IMG/VR virus record: IMGVR_UViG_3300030104_001601
Location: 1 to 26,996 of that record
Direction: 5' to 3' (one strand)
From: a virus
DNA length: 26,996 nt
Made by a program: the position numbers and the translations under genes. Below are positions 3,521 through 26,996 of this stretch, piece by piece. Every line of letters begins with the position of its first letter. The stretch's first letter is position 1. The notes beneath the pieces are model-generated. The model was not told the DNA's origin and searched no databases. It worked only from the letters and a program-made list of their open reading frames with translations.

Positions 3521-4543
3521 TTATTTACCACCCATTGCTGAGTATCTAGCACTCTGCTGCAATGACCAAGGGTGGGCAAAAAAAGCACCGTTAATGACAG
3601 AACCTGTCTTACCTTTTTGTTTAGCTAGGACAGCGTAGTTCTTTTTCGGGGGAGCTTTAATGACCTTTTTTGATTTAGCCTTGGTTGGTTGTGTTGGAGC
3701 TGGAGGTCCATGTTTAGGAAGTTCAGCTGCAGTAATAAGACCTTGGTTGTAGGCAGCTTCTAGTGAGCCATGAGCAAGAGCACTACTTTGGAGGACATCT
3801 TGTTTAATTAACTCAGCGGCAAAAAGGTAAGCATTGCCAGTCTGGGCAGCTCTAGCAAGAGCAACACCTGAGGCAACACGTTCCATAGAGATAGCGCCTA
3901 ACCGTCTTACAGGCTGGTGAGTATCGAACTTGACGTATTTTGCATAACGACGTTTGGCGTCTCTAGGTTGCCAAGTGTCCTGTGTAATACGCTCACCATA
4001 ACCAACATGATCACCAAACTTGTCTGGAAATCCAGCAAAGGCACCGTTGGTCATTCGCCTATAAAGACTGGACCGTTGATTAGTACGGTTATTTCCAGTT
4101 TGTCCACGGTTAATGGTTTTTCTGAAATCTTTTTCATCCTCAATAGCATGGAAATAATATTGAGAGTTAGAACCACCACCATCGCGTGCAGCTGGAATTT
4201 GATCAACCAGTTGATTTACGGAAGCTTGGATAGCAATGCGCTTAACTTTAGAGTTGGGATTGTCAGGTCGTGAAAAATTACCATCTGTTGTGAAGTCAAC
4301 GCTTCGACCACCTTGCAAACCAGTATCACCACCGAGCGTACCTTTAACTCCAGTTTCTGGATTATTAAGCACGGTATTACCGTTAGGCATTTGTTGAGGT
4401 TGATACTGCTGCATACTTTGCAAGTAACGCCTAGCTTCCTTTGCATCTGGAGACAAATTGAGAGTTTGTCCCATTGCCGCACGTTGCATTATCTGGACAA
4501 AGTTGTCTGATGTAAAATTCTGCTCTTCTTCTTCTGGGTTCAT
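3521..4543 (-). CDS. Hypothetical protein (340 aa) between HNH nuclease and large terminase
   Basis: The protein begins with an acidic MNPEEEEQNF, followed by a Gln/Asn/Gly-rich stretch to about residue 95, then a more ordered middle and a basic, Pro/Lys-rich segment near the C-terminus (KAKSKKVIKAPPKKNY). No enzymatic motif or membrane segment is visible. The start overlaps the HNH gene stop by 4 bases and the stop lies 3 bases from terL, so it is firmly part of the packaging cluster. It might be a DNA-binding or virion-associated protein, given the low-complexity head and basic tail, but this is inference and the family is not recognised. Confidence 0.8.
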   Translation of the reverse strand: MNPEEEEQNFTSDNFVQIMQRAAMGQTLNLSPDAKEARRYLQSMQQYQPQQMPNGNTVLNNPETGVKGTLGGDTGLQGGRSVDFTTDGNFSRPDNPNSKVKRIAIQASVNQLVDQIPAARDGGGSNSQYYFHAIEDEKDFRKTINRGQTGNNRTNQRSSLYRRMTNGAFAGFPDKFGDHVGYGERITQDTWQPRDAKRRYAKYVKFDTHQPVRRLGAISMERVASGVALARAAQTGNAYLFAAELIKQDVLQSSALAHGSLEAAYNQGLITAAELPKHGPPAPTQPTKAKSKKVIKAPPKKNYAVLAKQKGKTGSVINGAFFAHPWSLQQSARYSAMGGK

Positions 4544-4872
4544 AGTTTAATATGAGAAAGTATTAGTCCTTCTCTAAGTAGGTTTTGTCCGAAGCGTTCC
4601 CTCATCCAAGAACGCCAGTGTTTACTTCCTTTATCCTGGTTACATACTGAGCAGGCACAAACGAGATTGCTTGTAATATCCTCACCGCCATAGGTGCGAG
4701 GATGAACGTGATCCAAAGTAAGTTCGTGTAATTCATAAGTTTCTCCACAATAAACACATGTACAGCCGAAATGTTCTTTGATGCTGCGCCTCCAAAGACG
4801 CTTTGCTTCAGAGGATGTCATGGTTATTAGGTTTTCTAGATAATGTTCAGGAGTTGGAAGTAAAGGGGTCAT
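4540..4872 (-). CDS. HNH endonuclease
   Basis: A 110-aa protein carries a complete HNH zinc-binding nuclease motif. CVYC (39-42) gives the first zinc cysteines, LTLDHVHPRTYGG (51-63) holds Asp54-His55, NLV (69-71) the central Asn, and CSVCNQDKGS (74-83) the second cysteine pair with Asn78 and Lys81. Such nucleases nick or cut DNA. HNH genes beside terminase genes are common in tailed phages, and in some systems the nuclease aids cohesive-end packaging. Here it lies between the small and large terminase genes, overlapping both flanking genes by 4 bases. A solitary homing-type HNH is the alternative, but the tight coupling argues for a stable role in packaging. Confidence 0.92.
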   Translation of the reverse strand: MTPLLPTPEHYLENLITMTSSEAKRLWRRSIKEHFGCTCVYCGETYELHELTLDHVHPRTYGGEDITSNLVCACSVCNQDKGSKHWRSWMRERFGQNLLREGLILSHIKL

Positions 4873-7322: not shown

Positions 7323-7483
7323 TACTTAGCGGGGAACAACCCGTTCCGTACAAATTCAACAGCTTTGTCGTCAATGTCGTTGTCGGTTGTTTCAGCAAGT
7401 TTTTCTAGCATTTCAACGATCAAACCTTTAACACGGTCTGACTGCAAGAATTGAAACAAAAGTGGGCGAATAAGAGTAATCAT
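7322..7483 (-). CDS. Small conserved cyanophage-type protein (53 aa)
   Basis: Translating from ATG 7483 gives MITLIRPLLFQFLQSDRVKG, then an amphipathic helix (LIVEMLEKLAET), an acidic turn (DNDIDDKAVEF) and VRNGLFPAK. The ORF overlaps the 498-aa gene by 4 bases (ATGA) and the Pro-rich gene by 1 base (TAATG), so it fills the gap exactly. I recognise the family from other cyanophages by its N-terminal IRPLLFQFL and C-terminal NGLFP signatures. Function unknown; the hydrophobic N-terminus suggests peripheral membrane contact. Confidence 0.8.
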   Translation of the reverse strand: MITLIRPLLFQFLQSDRVKGLIVEMLEKLAETTDNDIDDKAVEFVRNGLFPAK

Positions 7484-8976
7484 AGTGAAAGTAAGTCGTG
7501 ATCAATACGTATGGATTGAATAGTTGCGTCACCTTTACTTGGGTGAGTGCATCGAATAAGAAAGACAGGTTCGTTAGTAGCAGTATCGTAACGAATAAAA
7601 TAGGAATAGATATCATTTTCATCTGCCTCGGCAAAGTCCCCAGGCATTTCATGATCTCTTGACGTGTCTAGTTTATAGATTTTAAGAACTGAAGGTTTAT
7701 TGGTTGAAGAGTCTATACTAAAAATAGTAACGATATCACTAGTAATAGATATAAACTTGCCGCTACCAATACCAAGAACTTTATCTCCGTAAGAGGTGAC
7801 AGGAGTTTCACCCGGATACCCACTTGAATTCGATAAATTAAGTGCCGGTTCTTTTGGCGCAAATTTAGAAAGATTTAGATTGTTAGATGAAAGATCTGTA
7901 AATGCATAGTTTGCTGAGCCGCCTGTACCTAATGTCCCTTCATAGGAACCTTGAGAAATGATAGGAACACCGTTTGGTCCTAGGTAAAGAAGTCCAGGCT
8001 TAGCCAAGAGATCTTCATGTAACTCCAAGGTATTAAGAGATTCCCAAATATTTACGGAATAAGCACGTTCCCAATGTAATTGAACATTACTGTGAGCAGC
8101 AGTGCCCCTAGCCATTACATGGTGGGCATAATAACCAGATGAGTTATATGTAAACGGAACACTACAAATACTGTGAACACTGCCAAGGTCTACTGAAACA
8201 ACATCAGGCTGAGGGACATGATGAAAATTATGGAACATTTTATCAGAACTACCAGTAACAGTGACATCTGATTCGCTCCATGTACCTACAGTAGGACCAG
8301 CGTTTCTTGAACAGTCAAGTTTGTAAAAGCCTGGTTTACCGTTAGGGCCACCGACCCCAGCAACAACCATTGAATTATCTCCACCGAAATACCCTGTGTT
8401 ACCTGAAGAACCACCAACTGGCAGGCATCCGCATCTTGTGCCGTGACCAATAAAAAGTCCGCCTGAAGCCGCATCAGTTACAGTAGTACCCTCAAAGGCT
8501 TGGCCATTTGCTCCATTAACGTAACCGACAGTATATCCATAAGTTTGACCAGTACCAACCCAATCAGTTTTACCAGCCATGATAAAAGAACCATGGCGAG
8601 GTTCATAAATTAAACCTACATTTGGAATGTCAGGATCACTACTTGTACTAGTAGTCCATACGTCATTTAGACCGGTTCCACCAAGTGTTGTGTTGATAGC
8701 AATGCTGCCATCAGTACCGACACTAAAAGTACGAATACTGAAACCGGTCTCATTGTTGTTAGGATCAATCCAGACACCCCAACGCGCAAAGGTTAAACGA
8801 TCAGTAAGGTTATCGGATGCTTGTAAAAGCGCAGCCGGGAAATAACCAGAACCTAATGGAGAAAGAGATCTAGTTTTAGGTCCTAGATCAATTGTCTTTT
8901 GATCAACAATGGTTCCAATATAGTCAAGGCGTTCCCGCATAAAACGCGGATGGTTAGATAAATGTTTTAAGTTCAT
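7480..8976 (-). CDS. Putative tail fibre-associated or receptor-binding protein (498 aa)
   Basis: The gene follows the tail fibre gene by 3 bp. After a short helical head (MNLKHLSNHPRFMRERLDYI) the protein is Gly/Ser/Thr/Asn-rich and beta-prone throughout, with many short turn motifs (GGSSGNTGYFGGDN, LGTGGSANYAF) and no enzyme motif that I can see. A distal fibre subunit, a spike or a propeller-like receptor-binding protein fits both position and composition. T7 itself has a single fibre protein, so a second fibre component is an inference from context. No chaperone or cleavage motif is evident. Confidence 0.65.
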   Translation of the reverse strand: MNLKHLSNHPRFMRERLDYIGTIVDQKTIDLGPKTRSLSPLGSGYFPAALLQASDNLTDRLTFARWGVWIDPNNNETGFSIRTFSVGTDGSIAINTTLGGTGLNDVWTTSTSSDPDIPNVGLIYEPRHGSFIMAGKTDWVGTGQTYGYTVGYVNGANGQAFEGTTVTDAASGGLFIGHGTRCGCLPVGGSSGNTGYFGGDNSMVVAGVGGPNGKPGFYKLDCSRNAGPTVGTWSESDVTVTGSSDKMFHNFHHVPQPDVVSVDLGSVHSICSVPFTYNSSGYYAHHVMARGTAAHSNVQLHWERAYSVNIWESLNTLELHEDLLAKPGLLYLGPNGVPIISQGSYEGTLGTGGSANYAFTDLSSNNLNLSKFAPKEPALNLSNSSGYPGETPVTSYGDKVLGIGSGKFISITSDIVTIFSIDSSTNKPSVLKIYKLDTSRDHEMPGDFAEADENDIYSYFIRYDTATNEPVFLIRCTHPSKGDATIQSIRIDHDLLSL

Positions 8977-8979
8977 AAT

Positions 8980-10653
8980 TTAATAAATAATAAAACCGGG
9001 TTCGCCTGTACCATCTTCGTCAGTCCACAGCACCGTAACAACGGCATAATCAACATCTAAGACATAGTTGTTTGCAGATCCCATTATTTTTTCGCCACCA
9101 TTAGCGACAAGAGTCGCAGGATTGGTTGCCCAGGTGCCATAACGATCAATTAGCACAAATTCAAAGCCATCTTCGTAATTAGCATTAACAGTGGGAAGTA
9201 ATACATTTCTAGCTCCAGACCTAGTATCAACCCAATATCTCCTGTGTTCGTCAGCTTGACCACCACCAAGGTTTATAACTTCCCCTTTTCTGTAGTCAAT
9301 CTGATTATCAACATATATCGTGTTAGCAGCCTTACGGTTCTGTGAGTTGTCGAGCTGTGTTTTGAATTCTACAGAACTATCATTGTGAATAACCTGACCA
9401 AGATTACTTACAGAATATACCGGGAACGCATCCTCAAAGTGATCTTTAACCCATTCTGTTGTTGCAATGGAGTTATCATCTGTAGATACATTTTGTACAG
9501 TTCCACTAATAGTAGGTGTACCAGTAAATACAGGACTATCAGACCCAGCACTTACGTCTTTCCAGGTTGAATTGACATAACCTTCAAATACATCGAGGTC
9601 AGTGTTGTACCTTAAGAAACCCTCCGCTGGTGACGAAGGTCGTTGCGCAGTCGTTCCTGCAGGGATAACTGCAGCGACTTGTTCCTTAGAAATGTAGTTA
9701 TTGTCTGGATCAATATTGAAGTAACTAAGATAATTCCAATCAGTACCATCATATCTGACTCGAAGGGCAAGAGAGGAACTTCCAGTGAAAGTACCTGGAA
9801 TACCAGTAAAACCAGAAGTCCCAGAACTAATTCCTGTACTGTCAGTAATTTCGGCAGTGTCGTTGGTATTTGGAGTAAGACCATTTAAGGTCGCAAGATT
9901 AGCAACCAAGGTAAGGGGCAGAACAGCAGAGACAAGTGCTGCAGATTGAGTAGCAAGAGCAGCCGCAGACTGTGCAACATTAACTGCAGAAATAATATTA
10001 CCATTACCATCCGTAGCCGTAGAATTTAAAATGGCTGTATTGGATTGATTAATAGCATCAACTGCAAGGGTAATGGCTAAATAATAAGTTCCAGCAGGTT
10101 GGCCTGGTACTTGTATTCTTGAATTACTAAGTGCAAGGCCTGCATTGTAGTCAGCTTGATTAGATGTACTGACAGCAGTAGAAGCCTGACTGACAGCACT
10201 AGCTGCAGAGGTTGACGCGGCATTAGCAATATCAATAGCAGAATTAAAACCACCAGCACCGTCTGATTCTCTAGAGTTAGTTAAAGCTAGATCACCCTTT
10301 GTATTAGCAGACGCAACGTCGACAAGAGCCTGGTCAACTTTGTTTTCAGACTCTTGCGTAACAAAAAGGTTTTGAACGAAGTTATTATTCAGGTCTTCTG
10401 CTTTAATAGCTGAACCTGGAAAAAAGGTAGAATTGAGCTGGTCAATATTAGTATCACGGAAGATACGGACAGCTTCACCAGCTAGTGGGGGGAAAGAAAA
10501 AGAAATTTGTGTGGCATTATCAAAAGAGTATTCAGTTGTTTGCAGTACATCGTCAACAGTTACTTTGACATCAGACTGATCAATGTATTCAAATGTAATT
10601 GAGAAGGCAGTAGTCTGACCATCTCCTGTGTATGTATTTTGTGTAATTGCCAT
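8980..10653 (-). CDS. Tail fibre protein, T7 gp17-like N-terminus (557 aa)
   Basis: Residues 1-100 match the T7 tail fibre attachment domain pattern: YTGDGQTTAFSITFEY (8-23), VDDVLQT, IRIFRDTNI-like AVRIFRDTNIDQ (61-72) and the LNNNFVQNLF end (88-97). This is the part that binds the tail. An Ala/Ser/Asn-rich coiled-coil shaft follows, with degenerate repeats of the form ALxNSxxxDGxG near 122, 173 and 207. A RYNTDLDVFEGYVNSTW segment of the kind common in phage fibres comes next, then a beta-rich C-terminal region that should carry receptor specificity. It lies 7 bp after the largest internal virion protein, as in T7. Confidence 0.92.
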   Translation of the reverse strand: MAITQNTYTGDGQTTAFSITFEYIDQSDVKVTVDDVLQTTEYSFDNATQISFSFPPLAGEAVRIFRDTNIDQLNSTFFPGSAIKAEDLNNNFVQNLFVTQESENKVDQALVDVASANTKGDLALTNSRESDGAGGFNSAIDIANAASTSAASAVSQASTAVSTSNQADYNAGLALSNSRIQVPGQPAGTYYLAITLAVDAINQSNTAILNSTATDGNGNIISAVNVAQSAAALATQSAALVSAVLPLTLVANLATLNGLTPNTNDTAEITDSTGISSGTSGFTGIPGTFTGSSSLALRVRYDGTDWNYLSYFNIDPDNNYISKEQVAAVIPAGTTAQRPSSPAEGFLRYNTDLDVFEGYVNSTWKDVSAGSDSPVFTGTPTISGTVQNVSTDDNSIATTEWVKDHFEDAFPVYSVSNLGQVIHNDSSVEFKTQLDNSQNRKAANTIYVDNQIDYRKGEVINLGGGQADEHRRYWVDTRSGARNVLLPTVNANYEDGFEFVLIDRYGTWATNPATLVANGGEKIMGSANNYVLDVDYAVVTVLWTDEDGTGEPGFIIY

Positions 10654-22220: not shown

Positions 22221-22248
22221 AAAAAAAAGGGGCTCCCGAAGGAACCCC
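22221..22248 (-). terminator. Intrinsic terminator after the capsid gene (Tphi-like position)
   Basis: On the minus strand an 8-bp stem (GGGGTTCC with GGAGCCCC, one G-U pair) closes a TTCG tetraloop and is followed by eight T residues. It starts 30 bp after the capsid stop. This is a textbook intrinsic terminator. T7 has its main late terminator in the same place, between genes 10 and 11, which lowers expression of tail genes relative to capsid. Confidence 0.95.
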
Positions 22249-22277: not shown

Positions 22278-23414
22278 TTAAGAAGCGTTAGCAGGGTAGG
22301 TTGCACCGAACGGAATAGGAGCGGAAGCACCTGCATAAAGCTCAACGCAAGCAGCTGGGTTCAGGAAATCTGCGCCCATTGCGAGGCGTCCCAGGATTAC
22401 ATCGCCCTGGTAGATGACGGATACGTCACCACTGGTAACTTGTACTTGAGGACCAACTGCTTCTACAACAGCGGCGGCTTCACGTTGGAAGATAAGACCG
22501 CAAGTTGTGTCGAAAGCACTCTGTGCTCCGTAGAAGTTGTTCATTCCTGTTTCGTCGCCAGCTTCAAGAGCAGTGTCACTGCCGATGAAGTCGCCTGTGT
22601 TGCCAGGTGCGTTGACAGCGCCGCCGTACTTCACACCGTAGTTGCCAAAGAACGGAATGTTCATTGACTTGTAGATGTGGATACCAGCGATTTCAACGAT
22701 GCCGTTGCCGCCTTGCAATGCAGGAGCAGTGGCATCACGATTGATGAGACCACTTGTACCTGCAGCCTGGATCAATTCGTAGTACTGGCGGGGGTTCAGG
22801 ACAGCGCAACGGCCATCGCTAGAAACTCCCTTTTCGTCCAAAGCTGCAGCTGCATTATAAAAAGCTTCAATTAGCTTTGGAGAGCTGTATGCATCAGCTT
22901 CAGTAGTACCAACTGCAATTTGAGTACCACCGGGCTCCTCGAATCCAGTAGCGGCTACAGGAGATGCAATACGTGCACCTTTTGCAATCGCGCGGAAGAT
23001 CAGGCGGTCATACTTTTCTGCGAGGGCATAGCCGATTTTGCGGCTGATCTCCGAGCGCAGATCGTAATGAGAGAGGGTCTCATCAAGGTCATATACGAAC
23101 GCTGAACTGATGAGCAGATCGTCAATCGTGACGGTCTTCTCAGCCACCGGGGGCGCACCATCGGAGTTACCGAGGATTGCGTTGCCAGGTGTATGATACT
23201 CAGCCTTTGTACGGCCAGTATAGATGAACTGAAGAGATTTGCCGTTCTTCAGTGTACGCTTCATCACAAGATCGCGAGCGATTGCATTGTGCTGGAAGCC
23301 TTTAAACATCTCACCAGAGAAGAGCTTCAAATACAATTTGCGCTTATCGCCGGTAATATTTTCCTGACCAATATTAGTAAGAGCTGTGGTCAGAGCATTA
23401 GTTTGTTGTGCCAT
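22278..23414 (-). CDS. Major capsid protein (T7 gp10-like)
   Basis: This is the shell protein of the T7-like cyanophage head, HK97 fold by family. Diagnostic stretches are KLFSGEMFKGFQHNAIARDL (30-49), RTLKNGKSLQFIYTGRT and DDLLISSAFVYDLDETLSHY, then RKIGYALAEKYDRLIF. The 378-aa length fits T7 gp10A (345 aa) and cyanopodovirus relatives. It is richer in GC than most other late genes, as expected for a very highly expressed gene. A structured gene-free leader precedes it and a strong terminator follows, so it appears to be expressed as its own unit. No Shine-Dalgarno is obvious (CTCTTTAAAA just before the ATG). Confidence 0.96.
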   Translation of the reverse strand: MAQQTNALTTALTNIGQENITGDKRKLYLKLFSGEMFKGFQHNAIARDLVMKRTLKNGKSLQFIYTGRTKAEYHTPGNAILGNSDGAPPVAEKTVTIDDLLISSAFVYDLDETLSHYDLRSEISRKIGYALAEKYDRLIFRAIAKGARIASPVAATGFEEPGGTQIAVGTTEADAYSSPKLIEAFYNAAAALDEKGVSSDGRCAVLNPRQYYELIQAAGTSGLINRDATAPALQGGNGIVEIAGIHIYKSMNIPFFGNYGVKYGGAVNAPGNTGDFIGSDTALEAGDETGMNNFYGAQSAFDTTCGLIFQREAAAVVEAVGPQVQVTSGDVSVIYQGDVILGRLAMGADFLNPAACVELYAGASAPIPFGATYPANAS

Positions 23415-23571: not shown

Positions 23572-23667
23572 TCACTTTGTGTATGCGACACCGCGATACT
23601 TGAGCTTCTGTTCCTTGGCAGCTTGCTGCTGCTCACGGACACGTTGCCTGAGTTCAAGTTTCGTCAT
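23572..23667 (-). CDS. 31-aa microprotein ending in a YRG motif
   Basis: Translating from ATG 23667 gives a Gln/Lys/Arg/Glu-rich helix (MTKLELRQRVREQQQAAKEQ) followed by KLKYRGVAYTK. GGAGGT lies 7 nt before the ATG, the clearest Shine-Dalgarno I noticed in the window, which strongly supports translation. The C-terminal LKYRGVAY resembles the YRG signature of DUF4278, a short domain seen in cyanobacteria and their phages; that link is by motif only. It is the last gene before the capsid leader. Function unknown. Confidence 0.7.
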   Translation of the reverse strand: MTKLELRQRVREQQQAAKEQKLKYRGVAYTK

Positions 23668-23674
23668 TGTGTTT

Positions 23675-23680
23675 ACCTCC
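23675..23680 (-). promoter_or_regulatory. Consensus Shine-Dalgarno for the 31-aa microprotein
   Basis: On the minus strand GGAGGT is followed by 7 nt (AAACACA) and the ATG at 23667. Several neighbouring genes (capsid, tail tubular A, psbA-linked ORFs) lack such a site, so this one stands out and decides the start. Confidence 0.8.
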
Positions 23681-23727
23681 GAAGAGATCCCAAGACCCCG
23701 TTCCATGCCTTGGGTAGCATGCGTCCT

Positions 23728-23898
23728 TTACATCGTGTCAAACAAGACATCGAGCTTTAGTCTGTCAAGTTGATCCCTGAGATGCAGAAGAGCTTGCTGC
23801 TCCTCTGGATCCCCACCGGGCCAAAACTTTATGTAATGGTTGACGGCTCTGTGCATCAACTCAATGTAGGCATCATTAACTCTAATTTCGTATTCCAT
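23728..23898 (-). CDS. Small conserved cyanophage-type protein (56 aa)
   Basis: Translating from ATG 23898 gives MEYEIRVNDAYIELMHRAVN, then HYIKFWPGGDPEEQQAL and a helical end (LRDQLDRLKLDVLFDTM). The WPGGDPEEQ turn followed by a Leu/Arg/Asp helix is a pattern I recognise from small cyanophage proteins near structural genes. It sits 27 bp after the 82-aa gene and 60 bp before the 31-aa gene. Function unknown; the helical content suggests a small dimer or a partner protein. Confidence 0.7.
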   Translation of the reverse strand: MEYEIRVNDAYIELMHRAVNHYIKFWPGGDPEEQQALLHLRDQLDRLKLDVLFDTM

Positions 23899-23925: not shown

Positions 23926-24174
23926 CTATTGTTCAACAGACTCGGTTGCCTGTTTCCAACCTTCCGAATTGAGTAAATTAAGAATATCTGTGTGGGTATA
24001 TTCAACACCACCTTCAATAGTATTTACAAAGGTAGGGCGATCCCCATCCCATTTAATAATGAGTTGCGAATTATCTAAAGAAGTTGGACATTGCCTAACA
24101 GTTTTAAAACAGGTCTGCTCGATATTAACTTTAGGCAATTCAGTAGTAGGCATTACGTAATAAGTTCTTGTCAT
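23926..24174 (-). CDS. Small protein of the tail/decoration gene cluster (82 aa)
   Basis: MTRTYYVMPTTELPKVNIEQ is followed by a Thr/Ser-containing segment and a core IIKWDGDRPTFVNTI, then EGGVEYTHTDILNLLNSEGW. I recognise this type from cyanophage fibre modules, where it commonly follows LamG-like or fibre genes. Its ATG overlaps the LamG-like gene by 4 bases (ATGA). No catalytic motif. A chaperone-like or capping role for the neighbouring fibre proteins is possible but unproven. Confidence 0.75.
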   Translation of the reverse strand: MTRTYYVMPTTELPKVNIEQTCFKTVRQCPTSLDNSQLIIKWDGDRPTFVNTIEGGVEYTHTDILNLLNSEGWKQATESVEQ

Positions 24175-25019
24175 GAGATTCCAAATCTACCTTTACGAGC
24201 ATTAAAGTTATTTTGTACACGGGTGGCACTGAAGTGATCATCGTAATAGCGGTACGCTGCTAGATCCATAACATCAGATCCACTGGTGTAACCAGGAACT
24301 GAAATAATTCCCATTCTTGAAGAAGTACCAGTATCAGTGACGCCAGAAGTAATTGTCTTTGTTTGATCGTAAATCAAATTGTTATTTACATACAACTGGA
24401 GATCTGTACCATCATAAGTAAAAACAACATGCTTCCAAGTATTCAAACTAGTTTGCGCAGTCATTCCAGATACTCCCGTTCCTTCATAGTCACTTACAGT
24501 ACCGTTTGAAGTGTTAGAACCCTGCACTCCTGGCTCAGTTCTTACAAACCAAGTATCCACACCAGGGAATTTAACCAGTGCCAATTGAAAGAAAGCTTCA
24601 ACTCTACTAGATGTGAAAGTATTATTTGCGGGATAAATGCTTAGCAAAACCCTGTTATTAAGGGTTATAAACCTAGCCCACACTTCTACTGTAAACTTGG
24701 GAGTAGTACTGTTTTTAGTGTTATACATAAAAAAGTAACTAGACCCAGACGATACATTCAATGCAGCAGTATCTCCAACACCATCAATCTGAATATATCC
24801 ATTTTGACCAACCTGTTGGTAGACAGGATCACCCTGAAAAACTCCATAAGTATTAGAAGTAGTATAACTAGTTAGGCTATTGAAGTCACTAAAAGGGTCG
24901 ACGCTTGGATAGCAAAGAGGGTTGCCAAAATCGACATCAATTTCAAGATCAGTAGTGTCATAATCCCGAGTTACAGAACGCGCATCTTCTGATCCGGTTA
25001 TTAAAGTAAGTGGGATCAT
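24171..25019 (-). CDS. LamG/concanavalin-like protein (282 aa), probable virion adhesion or decoration protein
   Basis: The protein opens with MIPLTLITGSEDARSVTRDY, then a beta-sandwich region with LamG hallmarks: KFTVEVWARF (108-117), SLNTWKHVVFTYDGTDLQLY (191-210), VNNNLIYDQT and a final RYYDDHFSATRVQNNFNARK. LamG folds bind glycans or proteins, so attachment to the cell surface is the likely use. It shares MIPLTL at the start and an NFNARKGRFG-like end with the next gene upstream, which marks the pair as diverged duplicates. It is coupled by ATGA overlaps on both sides. Confidence 0.8.
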   Translation of the reverse strand: MIPLTLITGSEDARSVTRDYDTTDLEIDVDFGNPLCYPSVDPFSDFNSLTSYTTSNTYGVFQGDPVYQQVGQNGYIQIDGVGDTAALNVSSGSSYFFMYNTKNSTTPKFTVEVWARFITLNNRVLLSIYPANNTFTSSRVEAFFQLALVKFPGVDTWFVRTEPGVQGSNTSNGTVSDYEGTGVSGMTAQTSLNTWKHVVFTYDGTDLQLYVNNNLIYDQTKTITSGVTDTGTSSRMGIISVPGYTSGSDVMDLAAYRYYDDHFSATRVQNNFNARKGRFGIS

Positions 25020-25669
25020 GCGTATCTATCCTCATGTGCGTTGTAATTTTGCAGAACCTCAGCTGCGGTCAATAGTTTATTTTTATATACCCGGAAAACT
25101 GAGAGGAAAAGGGGATGGTAAGTACCACTCTTGTCCCTACCAATGTATATCTTTTTAGCAACAGAGATATTTTTAGTCAAGGTATCCGTATAAATGAGCT
25201 GACCATTTTTATACAGTTTGTAATTGTTAGAAGATGAACTACCATCTCTTGTCCAAACATATTGAGTATGATAAATATAGGGATGGTTAAAATAACTTTC
25301 CTGCTTAATTTCGTAGCTTACAGGATCCTGCCCACCTTTATGTTCAAACAGTTCATCGCCGTTACTTCCATAACGATACCAAAATTCTACGCTAAACGAA
25401 TTAGAGCCAAAAGTAAAAACATTTGAACCAGTATTTGATTGCGCATAAGCATTAGCATTAGTCGAAAACCTTATTTCATTACCCCAATAAGAGTCTGCAT
25501 TAAAAGTCGTATTGTGTAAGGCAAAGTTATGGCCATTACCGGAAATATCGTACCAAGTGCTGCCGCTGCCTGGATATGAGGAAGTTTCATGAGCATCTAA
25601 ATATGTATCAAGGCCATCTGTTACATATCCAGGACCATCTCCGCCAGAGAAGAGGGTCAAGGGAATCAT
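25016..25669 (-). CDS. LamG/concanavalin-like protein (217 aa), paralogue of the neighbour
   Basis: Clear LamG-type signatures are present: YLDAHETSSYPGSGSTWYDI (23-42) leading into SGNGHNFAL, SFSVEFWYRY (91-100), NYKLYKNGQLIYTDTL and the terminal AAEVLQNYNAHEDRYA. This is the usual layout of stand-alone LamG proteins in marine phages. It begins with a TGATG overlap from the collagen-like gene and ends with a 4-base overlap into the second LamG gene. The role is probably surface recognition on the virion, with the target unknown. Confidence 0.85.
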   Translation of the reverse strand: MIPLTLFSGGDGPGYVTDGLDTYLDAHETSSYPGSGSTWYDISGNGHNFALHNTTFNADSYWGNEIRFSTNANAYAQSNTGSNVFTFGSNSFSVEFWYRYGSNGDELFEHKGGQDPVSYEIKQESYFNHPYIYHTQYVWTRDGSSSSNNYKLYKNGQLIYTDTLTKNISVAKKIYIGRDKSGTYHPLFLSVFRVYKNKLLTAAEVLQNYNAHEDRYA

Positions 25670-26217
25670 CAGCTGACTCCTTGACCGACAATTACAAATT
25701 TATTAGATGCAACACATAACAAAGTACAGAACCCATAACCAGCAAGCGTTTTGTTACCAGTAGTATTACTACCTGCAATACAAAGATCTACACTTGTACC
25801 TTCGGTAAGGGTTTGATCTGAACTGGAGTCGTTATAAATACCAATTGCTTCTCCTACTGAAAAGACAGAAGGAGGAACAGTTACACCACCAGTAGTAATG
25901 CTAATGAACTTACGTTCGTCACTTGCTACAAGTGTGTATGCAGATGTTTGAGAATTAGCTTGTATGGTTGTATCAACAGCAGGGCCTTGAGGGCCTGTAG
26001 CTCCATCAGAACCGTCTGCACCATCAGCACCATCAGCACCGGCAGGGCCTGTAGGGCCAGCAGGTCCAGTAGGGCCAGCAGGGCCAGTAGGTCCCTCAGG
26101 TCCAGTAGGACCAGCCGGTCCAGTACCACCAGGGCCTTGAGGTCCAACAGGGCCTTGAGCACCAGTGGTGTTATCAATATCAAAGCCGCCTGATAAAGGA
26201 TTAAATACGAATGCCAT
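25669..26217 (-). CDS. Collagen-like repeat protein (182 aa), probable head or tail decoration fibre
   Basis: After an 18-residue head ([18 protein letters not shown]), residues 19-80 are Gly-X-Y triplets, about 20 in all, with a single two-residue interruption after the fourth (GPG-GT-GPA). Pro fills many X positions, and three GAD triplets occur near the end. A 100-residue beta-rich domain follows (from [20 protein letters not shown]) and should act as a trimerisation or knob domain. The architecture predicts a trimeric rod with a globular tip. It lies 2 bp after the 67-aa gene and couples to the first LamG gene. Confidence 0.9.
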
Positions 26218-26219
26218 AG

Positions 26220-26423
26220 TTACACCTTCGTGACATCAGACAGCTTGTTATTTGCGTCATAGGTAAGCGTCATTGTGGCCACAACTACTCCACTTGCGCC
26301 GCCTTCCTTATACGTAATTGTTTCAATTTCACCAGTCCCGTTACCTGAAGCAACGTAGGTCATGGAAACATAATCATGTGGCGGGATGTATAAGCCCGCG
26401 ACGTTTTGAACTACTTGTGACAT
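26220..26423 (-). CDS. Small beta-rich protein (67 aa)
   Basis: [20 protein letters not shown] is followed by a [20 protein letters not shown] segment and a strand pair ([20 protein letters not shown]). I recognise this from small proteins in cyanophage structural modules; no function is known. It starts 7 bp after the stop of the 32-aa ORF and ends 2 bp before the collagen-like gene, so it belongs to the same transcription unit. The strand-rich composition would suit an adaptor between capsid and fibre. Confidence 0.8.
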
Positions 26424-26430
26424 AATTTAG

Positions 26431-26529
26431 CTAGTAATATTTTTTGTGCCTAGAAGAGCTAGGTCTATGGTCCCAAAAGATATAAGAGGTGACAGACAAT
26501 GCCACCAATGTAGTTAAAGCAATAATCAT
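26431..26529 (-). CDS. Possible 32-aa single-TM peptide coupled to psbA
   Basis: An ATG overlapping the psbA stop by four bases (ATGA) opens a frame reading [19 protein letters not shown], then [13 protein letters not shown] and a TAG. The first 19 residues form one hydrophobic helix and the tail is basic, so an orientation with the tail in the cytoplasm is likely. The stop is 7 bp before the next ATG, so the ORF fills the gap exactly. Size and shape resemble small photosystem or cytochrome b6f subunits, but I cannot match it to any of them by sequence. Confidence 0.5.
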
Positions 26530-26996
26530 CCAACAGCTGGAGCTTTAAGTGCAATAGGCACAATGTTGTTAGCTGCCAGATCAAGTGGGAAGTTATGTGC
26601 ATTCCTTTCGTGCATCACTTCAAGTCCAAGATCAGCACGGTTCAATACATCAGCCCAGGTGTTAACCACTTGGCCCTGTTGTGTCAGGACTGATTGGTTA
26701 AAGTTAAGGCCATTAAGATTGAAAGCCATAGTGCTGACACCCAAAGCTGTAAACCAAATGCCGATGACAGGCCAAGCTGCAAGGAAGAAGTGGAGTGAGC
26801 GGCTATTGTTAAATGAAGCATATTGAAAAATCAATCTACCAAAGTAACCATGCGCAGCCACGATGTTATACGTCTCTTCTTCTTGACCAAATTTGTAGCC
26901 ATTGTTTTGACTAACTTGCTCAGTGGTTTCACGAACCAAAGAAGACGTGACAAGACTGCCATGCATTGCTGAGAAAAGACTCCCACCGAAGACGCC
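26526..26996 (-). CDS. psbA: Photosystem II D1 protein, C-terminal 156 residues (5' part beyond window)
   Basis: The frame is open to the right edge, starting mid-protein at [19 protein letters not shown]. Using standard D1 numbering the visible ligands are intact: His215 and His272 for the non-haem iron, Ser264 and Phe255 at the QB site, and His332, Glu333, His337, Asp342 and Ala344 for the Mn cluster ([14 protein letters not shown]). A 15-residue tail ([15 protein letters not shown]) remains for processing by the host CtpA protease. The extrapolated length is about 359 aa. Phage D1 replaces the host subunit and keeps photosynthesis going during infection. The internal ATG at 26966 is not the start. 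Confidence 0.97.

Follow-up and report, generated by a model that had tools for sequence, protein, structure and literature searches.

Phage phi29 carries head fibres formed by gp8.5. In phage SPP1, the gene for the collagen-like protein gp12 lies between those for scaffold (gp11) and capsid (gp13), and the protein attaches to the capsid in its expanded form (PMC6316719). Carbohydrate-mediated attachment has been attributed to such decoration proteins (PMC7602432). In T4-like phages the fibre-tip receptor-binding protein is gp38 (PMC12892980). Here we describe a group of five genes in IMG/VR record IMGVR_UViG_3300030104_001601, analysed over its 26,996 bases (the window), which comprise the structural half of a marine cyanopodovirus with its genes on the minus strand. 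The group, termed here the cassette, lies between psbA and the major capsid gene and encodes a 67 amino acid protein (p67), a collagen fibre protein, two proteins with laminin G-like domains (LamG-1 and LamG-2) and an 82 amino acid protein (p82). We propose, with reasonable though incomplete confidence, that the five genes encode a single accessory and exchangeable virion adhesion fibre, additional to the T7-type tail fibre, that probably helps particles to adhere to cells or surfaces.

The cassette's five open reading frames (ORFs) span positions 23926–26423, and both their coordinates and their Pfam matches confirm the initial annotation, which had described five coupled ORFs encoding collagen, two LamG proteins and small partners. 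In the direction of transcription, the gene order is psbA (cut by the window edge), p67, collagen, LamG-1, LamG-2, p82, p56, p44, capsid, gp11, gp12 and, further downstream, the T7-type tail fibre. The p67 gene (26220–26423, minus strand, as are all features below) is separated by a 2-nucleotide gap from the collagen gene (25669–26217), which in turn overlaps LamG-1 (25016–25669) by a single nucleotide; the LamG-1/LamG-2 (24171–25019) and LamG-2/p82 (23926–24174) overlaps are 4 nucleotides each. Placement between psbA and capsid is as the initial annotation had it, except that the small genes p56 and p44 separate the cassette from the capsid gene. The proposal that this is a second adhesion system, apart from the tail fibre, is supported: the gp17-type tail fibre gene is separate from the cassette, at 8980–10653 (Pfam Phage_T7_tail, PF03906, E 3e-16), and the cassette is made up of recurrent fibre parts. 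Scanning the whole window with hidden Markov models identified one p67, one colC (the domain capping the collagen protein, see below) and two LamG domains, with no second p67 pair near gp17.

The p67 protein, which we propose to be a base or adaptor, belongs to the phrog_26903 family (PHROG E 1e-12), for which at least 514 matches were confirmed in IMG/VR. In 73 of the 74 distinct cases with readable downstream DNA, the ORF directly after p67 (mostly at −4 to +35 nucleotides) carries an NPFTG-type motif (M..FNPFTGxLD) at its N-terminus; 64 of these were found by a loose regular expression and nine were variants recognised by eye, and four are degenerate. The reverse also holds: among 4781 stop-to-stop ORFs of 100 amino acids or more in the collected loci (leaving out a second copy of the window), all 70 that match the strict motif directly follow p67. 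This sample is enriched for p67, and the ~160 loci chosen via the capsid protein or colC add no motif ORF without p67. The window conforms to the same definition (an NPxxGx[LF]D-type motif in the next ORF), with FNPLSGGFD in the collagen protein. Beyond the motif, the partner bodies are unrelated to one another—collagen, LamG and S74-chaperone fibres are all represented—and their PHROG matches are mostly to tail fibres.

This combination, in which a small conserved protein consistently accompanies a conserved N-terminal peptide on otherwise variable fibres, has the look expected of an adaptor and its plug, and the pairing suggests that p67 may contact the NPFTG peptide directly. Records in the phage collection that carry the family have a single copy, as does the window, which is easier to reconcile with one docking role and a mobile gene than with two separate roles. 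A confident AlphaFold2 (AF2) model of p67 (predicted local distance difference test score, pLDDT, 89) is a small four-stranded, YD-repeat-like sheet that in Foldseek resembles a ‘YD repeat’ protein of S-SRP01 and a protein of S-TIM5. The proteins that follow p67 in S-TIM5 and S-TIM54 are annotated as virion structural proteins.

A number of variations on the pair were seen. In locus L192 (5186–5437) the protein after p67 is just 83 amino acids long and has three tandem NPxTG-type motifs (NPVTGQLD, NPFTGQLD and NPFGISLD), whilst in L212 (5356–6192, 278 amino acids) and L242 (5425–6168, 247 amino acids) p67 forms the C-terminal part of a longer ORF, which may show what p67 attaches to. Genes judged by eye to be glycosyltransferase-like directly follow the NPFTG protein in L212 (6678–7877) and L215 (6701–8418), and in the head cluster of siphovirus KBS-S-2A (L187, 6301–7939) the pair is followed by two tandem phrog_17104 paralogues that are LamG-like by eye but have no Pfam match.

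The 182 amino acid collagen protein comprises the N-terminal anchor motif, a Gly-X-Y rod and the C-terminal colC domain. Pfam identifies the rod as Collagen (PF01391, E 5e-7, slightly above the curated cut-off) across residues 20–78, the longest unbroken run being 15 triplets (residues 36–80); this is the only Pfam match, the Phage_T7_tail N-terminal domain being absent. The 93 amino acid colC domain (25672–25950) is a recurrent C-terminal fibre domain that terminates many fibres, with 357 matches in IMG/VR and others in S-B28 and S-CBS2. In 60 of 61 distinct cases the ORF following a colC-terminated ORF starts at −4 to +3 nucleotides, an arrangement of colC fibre plus downstream adhesin that the collagen/LamG-1 overlap shares. 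What follows is a LamG gene in S-B28, L124, L166 and the window, and elsewhere a gene for a glycine-rich (Gly_rich_2) protein; a leader such as MTIQQMLLGG (pattern M-x-I-Q-Q-[ML]-[LM]-L-G) is common to many of these following genes. PDB sequence searches with p67, colC and LamG-2 gave nothing convincing.

LamG-1 (217 amino acids) and LamG-2 (282 amino acids) match Laminin_G_3 (E 2e-6 and 1e-6) with scores of 28.8 and 29.5 bits, respectively, against a Pfam gathering cut-off of 27.6; no other domain, including the glycine-rich adhesin domain, was found above the cut-off in either. The initial annotation had called the two proteins paralogues, and whilst they do share a similar N-terminal leader (MIPLTL[FI][ST]G), they are diverged, with 30% identity over 87 amino acids. 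For LamG-1, tblastn found relatives in S-SKS1, immuto and one huge phage, and a pattern scan added two short loci; for LamG-2, neither method found any in phage records or IMG/VR. Glycan binding by these proteins is suggested by the LamG fold. The p82 protein is a LamG-associated small protein, its homologues following or accompanying LamG in every locus found (the window, L014, L124, S-SKS1, immuto, L267/L268 and L269).

Taken together, these features suggest how the fibre might be built. The p67 protein would form a small base on the particle and hold the fibre by the NPxxGxFD peptide at the N-terminus of the collagen protein, whose repeats would trimerise into a short rod of about 15–20 triplets which, using the textbook collagen rise, would be ~13–17 nm in length, with colC capping its C-terminal end. 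LamG-1 (the proposed tip adhesin) and LamG-2, translated from overlapping starts, would dock on the cap as lectin-like tips for glycans on cells or particles, with p82 as a candidate assembly helper or tip partner that aids assembly of the LamG tip or completes it. Gene content, order and coupling, the near-invariant pairing of p67 with NPFTG proteins, the coupling of colC to the next gene and the association of LamG with p82 are all directly observed, and rods and tips are swapped modularly between phages. From these patterns we infer a virion location for the products, docking of LamG onto the colC cap and the role suggested for p82.

In cyanopodoviruses psbA is usually found in the interval from scaffold to capsid (P-SSP7, for example, has portal, scaffold, hli, psbA, small ORF, capsid), so the cassette sits in a known cargo slot. 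In the window this slot is unusually long at 3.1 kb; 54 complete psbA–capsid slots from an unbiased sample of capsid genes have a median length of 508 bp, and the longest reaches 2353 bp. Only one of the 54 slots (L014) contains p67 and none contains a collagen run of six triplets. Four relatives with capsids 75–79% identical to that of the window (L013, L022, L028 and L049) have the order psbA–p56–p44–capsid or psbA–p56–capsid, with only about 110–260 bp between psbA and p56. Other slots contain different cargo: a murein transglycosylase in S-B28, gp222 and tRNA-Gly in NATL1A-7 and a 2-oxoglutarate (2OG)-Fe(II)-oxygenase-like gene in L062 (E 3e-5, just below the Pfam cut-off). Similar oxygenase-like genes, often in pairs, were seen by eye in the slots of L063, L068, L080 and L084.

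In contrast to the four cassette-free relatives, L014, L088 and L206–L208 have p67 in the same slot. In L088, an independent contig, the order is portal, scaffold, a 113 amino acid protein, psbA, p67 (87% identical) and collagen (cap domain 85% identical), at which point the contig ends. In L014, psbA is followed by p67 (67%), a 273 amino acid LamG protein that itself starts with MSLQYNAFSNQLNV, p82 (40%), p56, p44 and capsid. The same order of p67 and collagen relatives after psbA in L088, together with the order of the L014 slot, indicates that the cassette is more than a chance assembly. In L206–L208 the slot contains p67 and a 330 amino acid protein whose motif is degenerate (HFDFANGKF, resembling that of the S-TIM5 protein), followed by p44 and capsid.

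Parts of the cassette also occur in two cultured phages. In the freshwater phage S-SRP01, scaffold is followed by genes for an RlpA-type protein, a hypothetical protein, p67, a 185 amino acid collagen protein starting MFRLNPITGSL, a 291 amino acid protein and capsid, so that a collagen fibre in the scaffold–capsid interval is not unique to the window. As in the window, p67 precedes a short NPxTG collagen protein in this interval, but the S-SRP01 collagen protein lacks colC, the next gene is an unclassified one rather than LamG and the interval is shown without psbA. In S-B28, the order is gp17, two small genes, colC, LamG, p67 and an S74 fibre. Here p67 and colC are 76% and 62% identical to those of the window, LamG (PF13385) lies directly after colC and an NPFTG partner directly after p67, as in the window. 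Unlike the window, however, the S-B28 locus is located after gp17 rather than beside the capsid gene, the colC protein precedes p67 and has no NPFTG motif, and no collagen was found in the parts examined.

Where on the particle might such a fibre be located? The initial annotation had suggested the head as a possible site, and it is quite plausible, though rather less than an even bet, that the products form fibres on the capsid surface or at the neck in the manner of SPP1 gp12 or phi29 gp8.5, allowing reversible adhesion to glycans. The genes occupy the scaffold–capsid position in the window, L014, L088, L207 and S-SRP01, with the SPP1 11-12-13 gene order as precedent (PMC6316719). In addition, p67 pairs adjoin capsid genes of unrelated families—in L257 (SU10_MCP), in the portal–capsid gap of L212 and after the capsid gene of L213 (phrog_1005)—and in the siphoviruses KBS-S-2A and S-H1 the pair lies shortly after the coat and connector genes. 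Gene position is not equal to particle position, however, and the p67 family, with members up to 76% identical to that of the window, is found after gp17 in S-B28 and likewise in S-RIP1, WH11-B and many contigs. Structure prediction for the C-terminal domain of the collagen protein yielded a colC model with a pLDDT of 87 whose best match among solved folds is the capsid spike of phage Pa223 (9ny6; E 0.0038, template modelling (TM) score 0.50), but the match is weak and tailspike and baseplate proteins follow close behind; these matches point weakly to phage surface appendages, whether on head or tail.

It is almost as likely that the cassette encodes a tail side fibre, the genes having moved from behind gp17 into the psbA–capsid slot and the products attaching to gp17 or to the adaptor/nozzle. 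The p67 gene and its NPFTG fibre follow gp17 directly or closely in S-B28, S-RIP1, WH11-B, S-SRP02 and many contigs, colC and LamG are also found there in S-B28, each phage record has a single p67 and the PHROG matches of the partner bodies, as noted above, favour tail fibres. Such homology had been named in the initial annotation as evidence that would tell against a head location, and the close p67, colC and LamG relatives behind the S-B28 tail fibre gene go part of the way towards this without being decisive. Against a tail location, p67 pairs adjoin capsid genes in phages without gp17, and the N-terminal domain typical of T7 tail fibres is missing from the collagen protein. It is improbable that the cassette is instead a non-structural cargo (moron) operon encoding products that function within the infected cell or at its surface, as secreted adhesins for example: although the slot it shares with psbA is a cargo site, as shown by the oxygenase-like genes, the S-B28 murein transglycosylase and NATL1A-7 gp222 and tRNA-Gly, its parts are of fibre type (collagen rod, capped fibre, LamG tips, relatives with an S74 chaperone) and homologous pairs are found inside the head or tail gene clusters of phages that lack the slot. 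Overall, we put the chance of head or neck at about even, that of the tail lower but substantial and that of a location outside the virion as slight.

Several observations weigh against the interpretation of the cassette as an accessory virion fibre or against individual parts of it. L222, the one exception among the 74 pairs, is a capsid-side locus in which p67 stands alone, without a motif partner, directly after a connector gene (phrog_477). Assigning p67 to a capsid or tail family by its fold was attempted and rejected, the top PDB matches being Rhs YD-repeat proteins with a non-significant E value of 0.06, and the colC match in PDB is itself weak (E 0.004). A role for the LamG-1 and LamG-2 leaders as colC docking signals is attractive by eye but their profile scores are within background (fractions 0.12 and 0.21), so we make no claim that the window's LamG proteins dock through their leaders. 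The virion annotation of the S-TIM5 protein could not be traced to underlying data, and we found neither direct proteomic evidence from virions nor a structure for any p67/NPFTG pair. Finally, decoration proteins are absent from the capsids of P-SSP7 and P-SCSP1u (PMC10575957); as no p67 was found in these phages either, their bare capsids do not settle the location.

If the accessory fibre interpretation is right, a two-part rule (p67, then an NPFTG protein) flags accessory fibre genes and predicts which hypothetical proteins are virion fibres in many aquatic phages, the psbA–capsid cargo slot serves cyanophages not only for metabolic genes but also for surface adhesins, and the question of head versus tail becomes testable in the cultured phages S-B28 and S-SRP01. 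A bolder proposal, which we consider rather unlikely, is that p67 and NPFTG constitute a general plug-and-socket with which tailed phages of unrelated podo-, sipho- and myovirus types attach exchangeable fibres, be they collagen rods, S74 fibres or LamG tips, to head or neck; were this true, it would represent an undescribed class of swappable surface decoration, widespread in aquatic phages.

The remaining features of the window can be summarised briefly. The 3′ part of psbA (photosystem II D1), identified by blastn to the annotated psbA of many cyanopodoviruses and by tblastn, runs to the window edge (26526–26996), and the gap between it and p67 contains a weak terminator-like hairpin (26488–26506), such hairpins being no more numerous than expected by chance. 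On the other side of the cassette are p56 (phrog_628; 23728–23898), a conserved 56 amino acid slot protein kept in the cassette-free relatives, and the small conserved slot gene p44 (44 amino acids, weak DUF4278; 23572–23706), followed by the Gp10A-like major capsid protein (22278–23414, Pfam E 5e-68). A strong terminator-like hairpin (8 pairs, T8 tail) lies just after the capsid gene at 22229–22248, resembling the terminator found after gene 10 in T7. Directly after gp17, where other podoviruses carry a p67/NPFTG pair, is a 498 amino acid protein with no Pfam or PHROG match (7480–8976), and a 110 amino acid ORF at 4540–4872 was judged by eye to be HNH-endonuclease-like.

How, then, does the cassette compare with known systems? 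Accessory phage fibres and collagen decorations are of a known kind, but this assembly and the pairing of p67 with NPFTG proteins seem to be undescribed in the open-licence literature, in which a limited search for NPFTG motif strings, phrog_26903 and the pairing found no description. A tblastn search of the phage collection with the cassette proteins gave no match to Syn5, which has horn and knob proteins, although the presence of Syn5 in the collection is unverified. The Flavobacterium phage immuto and Synechococcus phage S-SKS1 resemble the window in having tandem LamG proteins with a p82 homologue, but there these form part of large-phage fibre clusters, and the stretches inspected yielded neither p67 nor collagen. 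With SPP1 gp12 the likeness is one of gene position, a short collagen-like gene in the scaffold–capsid interval (the window ends inside psbA, and the placement of scaffold upstream is read from L088 and P-SSP7); gp12 is only 64 amino acids long, however, with no LamG or p67-type partners described. The gp37/gp38 pairs of T4-like phages such as S16 and PP01 resemble the window in that the fibre has its tip domain at the C-terminus and the adhesin is encoded downstream by a gene of its own. In other phages glycine-rich adhesins occupy the position after colC, just as in gp37/gp38 pairs, whereas in the window LamG replaces the glycine-rich gp38; the likeness is one of arrangement.

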